Shown here: piece by piece, positions 16,351-19,379 of the stretch | Position numbering within the stretch: the first letter of the stretch is position 1 | How the letters are laid out: each line of letters starts with the position of its first letter | Assembly (NCBI GenBank): GCA_030750975.1 | Contig: JASMHC010000001.1 | Location: 186,001 to 250,000, forward strand | Direction of reading: 5' to 3' | Source: Paracoccaceae bacterium | GTDB lineage: Bacteria; Pseudomonadota; Alphaproteobacteria; Rhodobacterales; Rhodobacteraceae | Length of the DNA stretch: 64,000 nt | Notes under the pieces: generated by a model | What the model saw: the letters and a program-made list of their open reading frames with translations, nothing else | Told to the model about the DNA's origin: nothing | Databases searched by the model: none | Program-made: the position numbers and the translations under genes

Positions 16351-16677
16351 GGATTTCCCCCGCGCATTGACCTTCTATCGCTTAATCCCGTGGTTTCGAC
16401 AAGTCAGGTTCGCATTTTGGGCGGGGCCAAATTCATGGCGGGTTTTGCCGTTGATTCGTGCAATTTCGTAAGTTGACCGGTGGGTTATGTCAGTCGATCT
16501 TCCCTAGATTTAACCCAATTTTAACATCCATTAATCAATATATGGTATCTCAATCCGGTTTGTCGTCAATATATTGCATTTACACAATTGATTTTCACCT
16601 TTGGTTAGAATTTCCTTGCGTCATACAACCTTAAGTAACATCGTGTTGATATCACGCAACCAAAAGGAGAAATCAAA
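16351..16677 (+). promoter_or_regulatory. A/T-rich upstream region of the repeat-protein operon
   Basis: This 327-base stretch has no plausible gene. From about 16480 it becomes much richer in A and T than its surroundings. Several -10-like hexamers occur (for example TATATG near 16539 and TAGAAT near 16605), but I cannot choose one promoter. TTGCGT (16616-16621) and ACGCAA (16654-16659) could pair in the leader. AAAAGGAG at 16662-16669 is a very strong ribosome site eight bases before the ATG. Confidence 0.5.
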
Positions 16678-17232
16678 ATGACCGCACTTAGAAAAGAAGA
16701 GCTGTTCACAGCAACCCAAACCGCCGAAACCACACATGATGACATGCTGGTTGGCGAAGTGACCGGCGGATTTATTTCCGGCTCGGCCCCAACCATGAAT
16801 GCCGACACCGTTATGGGTGACGAAACCGGCGGCTTCATTTCCGGTATCATTGCCCCGGCAGAAAAAGGCGACGCCAAATTGGGTGAAATCACCGGCGGCT
16901 ACATTTCAGGCTCTGCGCCAACAATGACGTCTGACACCGTCATGGGCGATGAAACCGGTGGATTCATTTCAGGCATCATAGCGCCGGCTGAAAAGGGCGA
17001 TGGCAAACTGGGCGAAATTACGGGCGGCTTCATCTCTGGCTCTGCTCCGACCCTTCAGTCAGACGCCAAGATGGGCGAAGTGACCGGCGGCTTCATTTCC
17101 GGTTCGGCCCCGACCATGACATCGGACGCGCAGGTAGGCGAAGTCACGGGCGGCTTTATCTCAGGTTCGGCCCCGACAATGGTCAGCCTGCCGCATAATG
17201 GCGATCAGGACCTGCCCCAGATCAAGAAGTAA
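16678..17232 (+). CDS. seven-repeat protein, candidate multi-core peptide precursor
   Basis: I do not recognise this 184-residue protein. It has a 25-residue N-terminal segment with no signal peptide (MTALRKEELFTATQ), then seven tandem repeats of 21-22 residues, then the tail LPHNGDQDLPQIKK. Every repeat contains TGG(F/Y)ISG. Five continue as SAPT (type A) and two as IIAPAEKGD (type B), in the order A-B-A-B-A-A-A. It has no cysteine, histidine only in the leader and tail, and no recognisable domain. A very strong ribosome site suggests high expression. The layout (leader, repeated cores, downstream unknown protein and transporter) suggests a ribosomal peptide precursor; a repetitive structural protein is the alternative. 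Confidence 0.75.
   Translation: MTALRKEELFTATQTAETTHDDMLVGEVTGGFISGSAPTMNADTVMGDETGGFISGIIAPAEKGDAKLGEITGGYISGSAPTMTSDTVMGDETGGFISGIIAPAEKGDGKLGEITGGFISGSAPTLQSDAKMGEVTGGFISGSAPTMTSDAQVGEVTGGFISGSAPTMVSLPHNGDQDLPQIKK
16753..17181 (+). repeat. seven in-frame 63/66-base repeats
   Basis: Repeat units start at 16753, 16816, 16882, 16945, 17011, 17074 and 17137. The codons for the shared TGG(F/Y)ISG core differ between copies at many third positions, and the two type B copies also differ by many synonymous changes while encoding almost the same protein. The repeats are therefore old and held by selection on the protein, not recent DNA duplications. Confidence 0.9.
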
Positions 17233-17252
17233 GCCCCCCACAGAGCTGAACG

Positions 17253-17269
17253 GGCGCTGCGTCAGCGCC
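17253..17269 (+). promoter_or_regulatory. intercistronic hairpin after the repeat gene
   Basis: GGCGCTG (17253-17259) and CAGCGCC (17263-17269) form a 7-pair GC stem with a 3-base loop and no following T run. Placed between the repeat gene and the next gene, it could protect the upstream message or lower transcription of the downstream genes. Confidence 0.6.
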
Positions 17270-17286
17270 ATAACAGGAGAGAAAAA

Positions 17287-18360
17287 ATGTCAAATGTTAT
17301 CGCACTCAACGCTTCGTCCCGTTTGGCTCCGTTGGACACCCGCATCGCCAATCTTGCATCCTGCTTCGGCTTTCACCGACGCAAAGGGGATGATGTTTAC
17401 TGGCTAAAGGAAAATGCGGAACTTCTGAATATCGTGGAAACATCTGGCAACCATCCCAACCCTCAGGCGTTCAACCCCTTGCGCAAATTCTACGACACGG
17501 TCGAAGAGCGGATGGAATTCTTTCCCCAATATTATCGCTTCTTTCTGTCAATGGTCACGGATCTGGAAGATATGGGGTTCGAGGATGACAAAGCCGAAAA
17601 GCTAAGCCATTGGGCGAATACGCAGCAAATGCCGCAGGGCGAAATGTCTGACCTGCAACGGCTTGAGGCCCGCCGCCTGATGAGCCGCAGAGGGGTCGAG
17701 CCTTTTCCGAATGACCCCGGTCTGGAAGATCGTGTGCGCGCCTTTGCCGGGGCGACCGACTTTTTCGCGATCCCGAATAAAAAGGCTGCATATGAGCTGA
17801 CACATGCCGTGTTCTATCTAAGTGAATACGGCCGGAAAGACCCGAATCTGGACACAGCGGCCGTCAATTCTTTGCTGAATGTGGGCATTCTTGCGATGCT
17901 CGAGCAGAACGGTGATCTGGTCGCCGAGGTTTGTATTGCCTTGCGCTTTGCCGGTCAAACTCCACCAGTTTACTGGGAAAACTGGCTGCGCCGCGATCGC
18001 CGGGGCTATGCGGTTGATCCGGATGGAATGTGGATGGGCGACGATTATCACAGTTATTTCATGGCTTTCTGGCTGGAAGGCGTTGCCGGTAATCCAATGT
18101 TTACCGACAAGTATTCCGATGAATCCATGTCGTTCCACAAAGCCCCGCGGGCTTGTGTTCCGCTGCGGGATTTGTCGAAGGTTTTGCTTAATCTCGATGA
18201 AGACAGACCGTCGGAATGGCAAAAACTACAACCCCAAGTAGAAAAAACACTTGAAAAAAATTCTTTAGCGGTTCTGAATACGGTACAGGAATCCACGTCA
18301 CGGTTCGAAGCCTTCTTTGAAAGCTTTGCCCGCGCCGACCGTATCAGGAAGAGTGCATGA
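17287..18360 (+). CDS. uncharacterised 357-residue protein of the repeat-peptide locus
   Basis: A soluble, mainly helical protein with no signal peptide or membrane segment. I do not recognise a catalytic motif. Noticeable conserved-looking stretches are GDDVYWLKENAELLNIVET, FFPQYYRFFLSMVTDLED, SDLQRLEARRLMSRRG and YELTHAVFYLSEYGRKDP. From memory it resembles a Rhodobacterales family of unknown function (possibly DUF6902), with low certainty. CAGGAGAG precedes the ATG. Its stop overlaps the transporter start in an ATGA, so the two are coupled. Given its place between a repetitive peptide and an exporter-like protein, a role in processing the peptide is a reasonable inference only. Confidence 0.7.
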   Translation: MSNVIALNASSRLAPLDTRIANLASCFGFHRRKGDDVYWLKENAELLNIVETSGNHPNPQAFNPLRKFYDTVEERMEFFPQYYRFFLSMVTDLEDMGFEDDKAEKLSHWANTQQMPQGEMSDLQRLEARRLMSRRGVEPFPNDPGLEDRVRAFAGATDFFAIPNKKAAYELTHAVFYLSEYGRKDPNLDTAAVNSLLNVGILAMLEQNGDLVAEVCIALRFAGQTPPVYWENWLRRDRRGYAVDPDGMWMGDDYHSYFMAFWLEGVAGNPMFTDKYSDESMSFHKAPRACVPLRDLSKVLLNLDEDRPSEWQKLQPQVEKTLEKNSLAVLNTVQESTSRFEAFFESFARADRIRKSA

Positions 18361-19379
18361 GATTTGAAAAAGTTCAGAAAACGGCGACTATCGGTGCATT
18401 ATTCGTACTTATCTACACCTTGATCGCCGCAACCGGCGACGCAGCCGCGAAACATATTGCGCAGGACTATTCGGCCCCTCAATTGTTTGCCTTTTCCGGC
18501 GGGATGGTCGCGCTGTTTTCCTTTATACTGGGAACGAAAGGTAAAGGGCTGTCGGGTCTGAAAACCAAATGCAAAGGGGCGATGGCCTTGCGTTCGCTTG
18601 CAACTGTCATCTCGGCCGTTTTGTATTTTTTTGCCTTTCGCGAATTGTCGCTGGCCGAAGTGTTCATCTTTATCGGGATCATGCCGATCCTCGCGGCACT
18701 GATGACGCCGCGGGTGTTGAACGAAGCGGCAGATCGCAATGCGTGGCTGGCCCTGGGCTTTGGATTTATGGGCGTGCTGTGGCTTTTTCCTGAAGGCTTG
18801 TCAGGTGTGACCCGCGGACACGGGATAGCCTTTGCAGCAAGCCTTAGCGGCGTTGTGTCGATGGTCATGGCCCGATTTATCGGGCGTCAGGAAAACAATC
18901 CGATGGCTTTGCTGTTTTATCCGCATATTCTGATGTTTCTGGTAATGAGCTTTGCATTGCCGTTCGTCTATAAAACGATGCCAATCAGTGATCTGCTTGT
19001 TGCCGGCCTTTACTCTGCATTGCTGTTTGCCGGCCGGTATTTTCTGGTCAGGGCGCTTTCAATGGCCCCGGCGCATGTTGTCATGCCGATCATGAATTTC
19101 CAGTTTTTATGGATGGTTCTGCTGGGCATGGGGATTTTCGCAGAAAGCCCAACACTGAATATCTATATCGGGGCGTCGATAGTCATTCTTTCCTGCACCA
19201 AGCTGGTGTTGGATGCCGGAAAACCCGCATCTGTCAAAATCGGCGCACAACACCGCATCGATGCACCCAGAAGCGGGCGGCTAAAATGGCCTAGATCGAA
19301 AAGCTTGTCCCGCAACCGCAGGAACTTGATGCGTTCGGGTTATCGATCACAAATCGCGCACCGATCAATTCCTCGGTAA
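18357..19379 (+). CDS. EamA/DMT-superfamily transporter
   Basis: A 340-residue membrane protein with about ten hydrophobic helices arranged as two EamA halves (about 10-140 and 155-290). Features include GDAAAKHIAQ in the first helix region, ALRSLATVISAVLYFFAFRELSLAE at the end of the first half, and APAHVVMPIMNFQFLWMVLLGM in the second. Members export or exchange metabolites. It is translationally coupled to the 357-residue protein. The last 30 residues are basic, outside the fold, and encoded antisense to the erpA-like gene, an 89-base convergent overlap suggesting loss of an earlier stop. Confidence 0.85.
   Translation: MRFEKVQKTATIGALFVLIYTLIAATGDAAAKHIAQDYSAPQLFAFSGGMVALFSFILGTKGKGLSGLKTKCKGAMALRSLATVISAVLYFFAFRELSLAEVFIFIGIMPILAALMTPRVLNEAADRNAWLALGFGFMGVLWLFPEGLSGVTRGHGIAFAASLSGVVSMVMARFIGRQENNPMALLFYPHILMFLVMSFALPFVYKTMPISDLLVAGLYSALLFAGRYFLVRALSMAPAHVVMPIMNFQFLWMVLLGMGIFAESPTLNIYIGASIVILSCTKLVLDAGKPASVKIGAQHRIDAPRSGRLKWPRSKSLSRNRRNLMRSGYRSQIAHRSIPR

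Follow-up and report, generated by a model that had tools for sequence, protein, structure and literature searches.

What is made from a 184-residue protein that carries one short motif seven times over, encoded directly upstream of a 357-residue helical protein and an EamA/DMT transporter? The question is raised by a three-gene operon in a 64,000-nucleotide stretch of Paracoccaceae bacterium DNA (assembly GCA_030750975.1, contig JASMHC010000001.1, positions 186,001 to 250,000), referred to here in its full length as the window. On the evidence of sequence comparison, the locus is very probably an operon for a multi-core ribosomally synthesised and post-translationally modified peptide (RiPP), as it encodes a precursor with a leader and repeated cores and has a dedicated enzyme adjoining it, the features by which a multi-core RiPP gene set is recognised. 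The fuller reading, in which the enzyme (a member of the DUF6902 family) changes the stereochemistry of the core, proteases release the peptide and EamA exports it where present, is one that we favour with somewhat better than even confidence.

An initial annotation of the locus had listed a 184-residue repeat protein with a 25-residue leader and seven repeats, a strong ribosome binding site (RBS), a GC hairpin and a coupled EamA gene, all of which were found in place. In window coordinates, the features are as follows.

16664..16669, + strand: precursor RBS AAGGAG, read directly, 8 nt 5' of the ATG
16678..17232, + strand: multi-core precursor peptide gene, 184 aa, seven units
16678..16752, + strand: leader, 25 aa, starting MTALRK
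16753..16791, + strand: unit 1, GEVTGGFISGSAP
16816..16854, + strand: unit 2, GDETGGFISGIIA
16882..16920, + strand: unit 3, GEITGGYISGSAP
16945..16983, + strand: unit 4, GDETGGFISGIIA
17011..17049, + strand: unit 5, GEITGGFISGSAP
17074..17112, + strand: unit 6, GEVTGGFISGSAP
17137..17175, + strand: unit 7, GEVTGGFISGSAP
17253..17269, + strand: intergenic hairpin GGCGCTG-CGT-CAGCGCC with a 7-bp G+C stem, not a general feature of the family
17287..18360, + strand: DUF6902 protein, 357 aa, predicted peptide maturase (epimerase-like)
17803..17805, + strand: H173 codon (ELTH motif), lost only in two precursor-less homologues
17914..17928, + strand: D210 to E214 (D-x-x-x-E), common to DUF6895
18046..18051, + strand: Y254-H255, common to DUF6895
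18357..19379, + strand: EamA/DMT transporter of a system-specific clade, translationally coupled, its ATG overlapping the enzyme stop (ATGA)

The 357-residue protein had been put down as of no known function, with new chemistry to be expected, but it belongs to an existing family with a homologous one beside it. It matches Pfam PF21843 (DUF6902) with an E-value of 1.9e-145 (484.7 bits against a cut-off of 27, profile positions 1-351 of 351) and also exceeds the cut-off of PF21836 (DUF6895; 82.2 bits against 23.8, E 5.4e-23, profile positions 21-235 of 289), a family that includes a lasso-peptide epimerase according to the title of one report (Shi et al., ACS Catal. 2026). DUF6902 and four aligned DUF6895 proteins share the motifs Y-xxx-H, D-xxx-E and YH, the residues of which are presumably catalytic. 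Epimerisation of the core is the likely and best-supported chemistry for DUF6902, to which, by homology and the title of that report, we give about even confidence. The AlphaFold2 model is nearly all-helical (predicted local distance difference test 90, predicted template modelling score 0.89). Foldseek returned no structural match to this model at E 0.001 or better, and a PDB sequence search found no credible relative of DUF6902 (best E 0.17) or of the four DUF6895 proteins. VIA-align matched the model to alpha/alpha toroids (class II diterpene cyclases and prenyltransferase beta subunits), the best at Z 12.4, root-mean-square deviation 3.9 and 226 aligned, although helical matches with Z below about 13 may reflect a mere common arrangement. 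The absence of radical SAM, YcaO, ATP-grasp and LanM features, as annotated initially, was borne out by Pfam and NCBIfam scans of the three operon proteins, which found no YcaO, ATP-grasp, radical SAM, LanB/LanM or protease domain. In the NCBIfam scan neither precursor nor enzyme had a convincing match, and a weak Pfam match of the precursor to Peptidase_G2 (E 0.1) was disregarded.

The precursor accompanies this enzyme nearly throughout the family. Flanks were fetched for 143 loci with a match, leaving 128 distinct proteins after identical ones were removed; L055, which matches DUF6895 better, was counted as DUF6895-type, giving 127 DUF6902 loci, and a fragment in G877 and second fragments in G918, G1095 and G771 were left out of the set. 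Here and in all counts that follow, kinship makes the related sequences non-independent samples. A spaced 4-mer present in at least four copies was found in the upstream open reading frame (ORF) of 102 of 128 loci, whereas 0 of the 1450 control ORFs taken from these loci had one; for at least three copies the counts were 115 of 128 and 6 of 1450; exactly two copies were common among the controls (375 of 1450). Tandem DNA repeats also yield wrong-frame repeats and single ORF choices may be off (e.g., L023); the contrast is clear. The 13 remaining loci, read by eye, comprise nine with two or three same-frame cores, L099, whose precursor shows clear units and is then broken by an assembly gap, and L055, L028 and L133. 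The nine are the weaker cases, since a 4-mer in two copies is frequent among the controls. By both means together, a repeat precursor lies just upstream of the enzyme in 125 of the 127 DUF6902 loci, which supports the initial proposal of a multi-core precursor with a dedicated processing protein. Homologues standing widely without any repeat protein, which would speak against that proposal, were not met with, and the other two have lost H173.

These two, L028 and L133, have no precursor upstream as read by eye and are also without EamA, and theirs are the only two of the 128 proteins that lack H173 and D210. Their loci are apparently remains of the system. That loss of the precursor and loss of the conserved residues coincide, in two cases only, argues more strongly than any other observation for action of the enzyme on the peptide. 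At the level of gene association, DUF6902 is demonstrably tied to the precursor in evolution.

An iterated weight matrix over the 125 precursors recovered 788 repeat units in 121 of them, 119 having at least two units and 114 at least three; the matrix detected no unit in L023, L050, L099 or L146 and a single one in L027 and in L147. The units follow the frame G-[DE]-x-[VT]-x-x-F-x-S-x-x-x-P with a spacing of mostly 20 or 21, and they differ greatly in number from one precursor to another, the matrix counting as many as 20. Across the 114 precursors with three units or more, pairwise identity at positions 7-10 is 0.99-1.00 inside a precursor but 0.36, 0.77, 0.32 and 0.38 between precursors; at positions 1-5 and 11, identity inside a precursor is 0.62-0.74. 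With equal weight per precursor, amino-acid differences at positions 7-10 come to 2.1, 1.9, 3.4 and 3.4%. The most common five-residue core takes 47 different forms among 119 precursors, led by FSSGS (22), FTSWS (13) and FTSSL (9); the cores are rich in Ser/Thr and some contain Cys. On a quick enzyme tree of 123 rows (most inner branches weakly supported, five short or divergent rows left out, seven without a core label), the core changes at least 66 times over 116 labelled rows. In the window itself, the initial reading of seven TGG(F/Y)ISG repeats holds in that seven GG[FY]ISG units are present, in the fixed frame G[DE]xTGG-[FY]-I-S-G-[S/I], but they are of two kinds, with GG[FY]ISGSAP in five units and GGFISGIIA in the other two.

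Comparison between repeats gives 48% synonymous against 2.7% amino-acid differences in the core (ratio 0.056) and 23% against 45% in the flanks (ratio 1.95). This is a plain count rather than a codon model, and Ser, Gly and Thr permit more synonymous change than the flank residues do; by amino-acid difference rates alone, core and flank are sixteenfold apart. As the repeats have diverged in their DNA, selection, and not recent copying alone, keeps the core near-constant in each genome. The precursor ends exactly at core position 10 in 77 of 121 cases, which suggests that the C-terminal end of the mature peptide lies there. Because the core is constant within lineages and turns over between them, a signalling role for the peptide may be guessed, and the product is more likely a signal or another lineage-specific effector than a structural protein.

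In the mechanism that we propose, DUF6902 would bind the repeated G[DE]-x-[VT] flank and alter the stereochemistry of one or more residues per core, with the near-invariant aromatic F/Y6 or S8 as candidates. Housekeeping proteases would cut the spacers, leaving position 10 as the core C-terminus, and release would yield copies of one short D-residue peptide that EamA, where present, would export.

The transporter is a less constant member of the system than the enzyme and precursor. In the window it matches PF00892 in two stretches (65.6 bits against a cut-off of 28.2), and a cluster-type EamA follows the enzyme in 94 of the 124 loci that have 900 bp or more of downstream sequence; a strict query and a hidden Markov model (HMM) agree on this figure. 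A DMT transporter does not, then, always accompany the system. Leaving out L055, L028 and L133, which are among the 30 loci without it, the figure is 94 of 121. A higher count, 120 of 124, was rejected, as the iterated search behind it apparently took in neighbouring ORFs that the strict query and HMM do not confirm. The window's genome is rich in EamA proteins (53 half-matches), so mere nearness of an EamA gene would mean little. The EamA gene overlaps the enzyme gene in 82 of 95 cases, and 25 cluster EamAs form one clade (support 100/99) apart from 20 other EamAs of that genome; these 20 are not all that it has, and two of the 27 picked cluster rows dropped out of the tree, including the window's own, with the same-genus L003 copy included. 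Relocation of the gene elsewhere was considered and rejected. In 13 genomes with an EamA-less locus (two of them precursor-less), no copy scoring as cluster-type was found elsewhere, although a strongly diverged copy could be missed; the best matches are about 22-31% identical and reach at most 109 bits, similar to those in the cluster-less G007 (97 bits), whereas four genomes with a cluster copy give 197-266 bits. Nor was a cluster-type EamA found in three genomes without the system. In one genome (G010:C3:1029650-1030623, L012) the EamA reading frame is interrupted, and the precursor and enzyme alongside look intact. By its phylogeny and gene order, EamA appears to be a dedicated but dispensable partner, and export of the peptide by it, where it exists, is plausible at even or slightly better confidence.

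The system is spread through one bacterial family and has mostly been inherited at one site. Of 147 relatives' genomes searched with the protein, 27 carry the enzyme, the window's own among them, and the family profile found DUF6902 in 108 of 394 genomes of the same family taken at nearly one per genus. A class-level sample gave matches in five of 385 genomes; four of these belong to that family, and the fifth match is weak and falls short of the cut-off. Among named genomes, 22 loci were found in Roseovarius, Sulfitobacter, Planktotalea and relatives, together with one in a Granulosicoccaceae metagenome-assembled genome (MAG), and a search of plasmids gave no DUF6902 match. In the window, domain scans name the three upstream genes as a FAD monooxygenase, xthA and a dksA-like gene, and erpA-like and dGTPase-like (dgt) genes were named downstream by eye from sequence. 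At least one of two flanking genes, xthA upstream or erpA downstream, is retained in 125 of 128 loci, and 98 retain the two together, so the system appears mostly to have been inherited in place. The precursor-less DUF6902 homologues of L028 and L133 also still stand beside the housekeeping genes of this site. The Granulosicoccaceae contig (L050) carries a full system with a different core (ELFGCY), lies outside Rhodobacterales and has neither xthA nor erpA adjoining, which suggests horizontal transfer or mis-binning.

Gene linkage points to the peptide as the target of the enzyme and no further, and the same multi-core pathway could use DUF6902 for cyclisation, dehydration, oxidation or cleavage of the repeats. 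We hold such other chemistry to be possible but tentative. An alpha/alpha toroid fold, which the model may have (Z up to 12.4), is a frame that serves many chemistries, the cores are rich in Ser/Thr with some Cys, and C216 of the enzyme is near-invariant (at least 90% of 20 sequences); however, C216 is not common to the four DUF6895 proteins, and the conserved residues linked to the precursor are those common to DUF6895, whose one reported member is, by the title of the report, an epimerase. A repeat protein that is never cut and serves as scaffold, adhesin or storage protein, with DUF6902 as its chaperone or decorator, would suit the frequency of such roles among repeat proteins and an operon that encodes no protease. 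This is nevertheless very improbable, given that no signal-peptide-like N-terminus was seen by eye in the window's precursor, that unit number varies so widely (up to 20), that in 77 of 121 precursors nothing follows the last core and that the flanks are free while four core positions are near-fixed, unlike in a folded repeat protein.

The nature of the product and the part played by the transporter have to be weighed in the same way. An antimicrobial peptide, with EamA as exporter and immunity protein, would account for cores that vary between lineages and for a system-specific EamA, but it is an unlikely alternative to a signal when the operon has largely been passed down at one site between xthA and erpA (one or both of these genes present at 125 of 128 loci), EamA is absent from 30 of 124 loci, no other immunity-like gene was recognised in the operon and the cores are short and polar. 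The same 30 absences, and the interrupted frame in G010, would fit an EamA that is unrelated to the peptide and kept as a neighbour by operon structure. Set against the single supported clade of 25 cluster EamAs (100/99), the overlap with the enzyme gene in 82 of 95 cases and the failure to find it in three cluster-less genomes, this appears quite improbable.

The reading that we prefer, a multi-core RiPP operon in which DUF6902 epimerises the core, has its own difficulties. We infer activity, product and cleavage alike from sequence, and the operon encodes no protease gene. DUF6902 is a separate Pfam family, only 15-18% identical to the four aligned DUF6895 proteins, for which the epimerase precedent is drawn from a paper's title. 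On the precursor side, the leader start M[ST]A..K is conserved only in part, in 64 of 115 complete sequences. For nine of the 125 loci the precursor was identified from two or three units picked out by visual inspection, and L046 has three units that are unlike one another. The window's own precursor extends past its last core and has two of seven units that differ at position 10. With regard to export, EamA is absent from 30 of 124 loci, the enzyme tree requires at least 15 changes between its presence and absence, and, as no copy scoring as cluster-type was found elsewhere in 11 EamA-less genomes that keep precursor and enzyme, export by EamA cannot be general.

The DNA around the precursor gene offers some indication of its regulation. 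The hairpin, initially proposed to favour precursor expression, lies in a precursor-enzyme gap of 54 nt, and this gap folds with z -2.5 against 40 mononucleotide shuffles. It was rejected as a general family feature, since z falls below -2 in only 25 of 114 gaps (median -0.5). Upstream of the precursor, the window holds one further element.

16510..16534, no strand assigned: triple TTAA array (TTAA-N7-TTAA-N6-TTAA), CtrA-like, ~160 bp 5' of the precursor start

Across 113 upstream regions of up to 350 bp each, compared with ~569 kb elsewhere in the same loci (mostly coding), TTAA-N6/N7-TTAA has 40 sites against four elsewhere, and other spacings from 1 to 14 occur in 0-4 of the 113 regions. 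The arrangement resembles what we take to be CtrA sites. Pairs spaced by 6 or 7 also stand upstream in L008, L014, L017, L096, L105 and others. The exact sequence TTATCCACA, which we take to be the DnaA box by name and consensus, occurs 99 times in 66 of the 113 regions and 0 times in the 569 kb elsewhere, often paired near -187 and -111 from the precursor start, ~75 bp apart (e.g., L010, L013 and L031). The window's own upstream region has no DnaA box within one mismatch. An origin of these boxes as a feature of the xthA promoter was not borne out: in genomes without the cluster, a box lies within 500 bp upstream of xthA in 0 of 17, some of which have little intergenic DNA there, with erpA inside the examined stretch in 15 (20 genomes were searched; G009, G022 and G023 were left out for having only a paralogue or a split gene). 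The corresponding figure for loci with the cluster is 66 of 114; the lineages being non-independent, no p-value is attached to this contrast. From these motifs we infer that the precursor promoter may be tied to the replication cycle.

In the literature searched, DUF6902 is named nowhere and the five core strings searched are not printed in any paper, and a large group of mostly marine bacteria thus appears to carry an undescribed peptide pathway. If DUF6902 is an epimerase, it would be a small tool whose five-residue target recurs as many as 20 times and comes in 47 natural types that could be tried. Core constancy within genomes, turnover between lineages and the DnaA boxes make a cell-cycle-linked signalling role directly testable. 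A broader picture, which we regard as doubtful for now, is of peptide communication in the Roseobacter/Rhodobacter group by a lineage 'pherotype', one short D-residue pentapeptide-like product that a tandem precursor would supply in many copies and a new family of helical epimerases (DUF6902/DUF6895) would mature. The system would be replication-timed in many lineages by DnaA boxes (and CtrA-like sites), widespread and mostly vertically inherited.

The closest known relative is the lasso epimerase of DUF6895, known to us by its title: the enzymes are homologous (PF21836, E 5.4e-23), and the same conserved residues occur in the four DUF6895 proteins. The likeness extends to gene order. Ten DUF6895 loci of other lineages were read, including Streptomyces, Kitasatospora and a Bacillaceae plasmid; the matches L067 and L068 (below cut-off) were not used, and the plasmid matches H5, H7, H8 and H9 were left out, H5 and H8 being in the same records as H2 and H3. 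By eye, a small gene with a Trp-containing core adjoins the enzyme in nine of the ten (L066 within L184, L180-L183 and L215-L218), one of them with two small genes and two with two repeats, and the leader is often of the type LxxSGLINxxTLxQL; no such gene was seen beside the DUF6895 gene of Streptomyces fungicidicus (L219). These Trp-core peptides look like a wider peptide family beyond lasso peptides. Near the DUF6895 gene with two small peptide genes, at L180:3119-6406, lie a papain-like cysteine protease (Peptidase_C70/C39_2), an O-methyltransferase and an MFS gene. DUF6902 precursors differ from the lasso type, as titled, in being multi-core with a five-residue F-x-S-x-x core, and no lasso B or C maturation protein (leader peptidase, macrolactam synthetase) was found among the three operon proteins and three upstream neighbours scanned, erpA and dgt having been named by eye.

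MslH has a metallophosphatase fold, unrelated to that modelled for DUF6902. It is described as the stand-alone epimerase of the ribosomal lasso peptide MS-271 and as using a metal-dependent acid/base mechanism (PMC10406935). The likeness to DUF6902 is that of a stand-alone enzyme epimerising a ribosomal peptide, and the difference, so far as that description goes, is its metal-dependent mechanism beside a DUF6902 model that is nearly all-helical. Cyanobactins and other multi-core RiPPs similarly have many cores per precursor and repeated recognition flanks, whereas the window's operon proteins have no protease, YcaO, ATP-grasp or radical SAM domain, and no PatA/PatG-type subtilisin protease and cyclase was found among the operon proteins and neighbours scanned. 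By analogy, the yeast alpha-factor precursor carries tandem copies of one short peptide, separated by spacers, and this peptide is the same throughout a species yet varies from one species to the next; the bacterial locus differs in having no secretion signal or linked receptor that was seen, and in encoding a dedicated enzyme alongside. Peptide epimerisation itself is known chemistry, and the novelty of the system lies in its enzyme family and its pathway.

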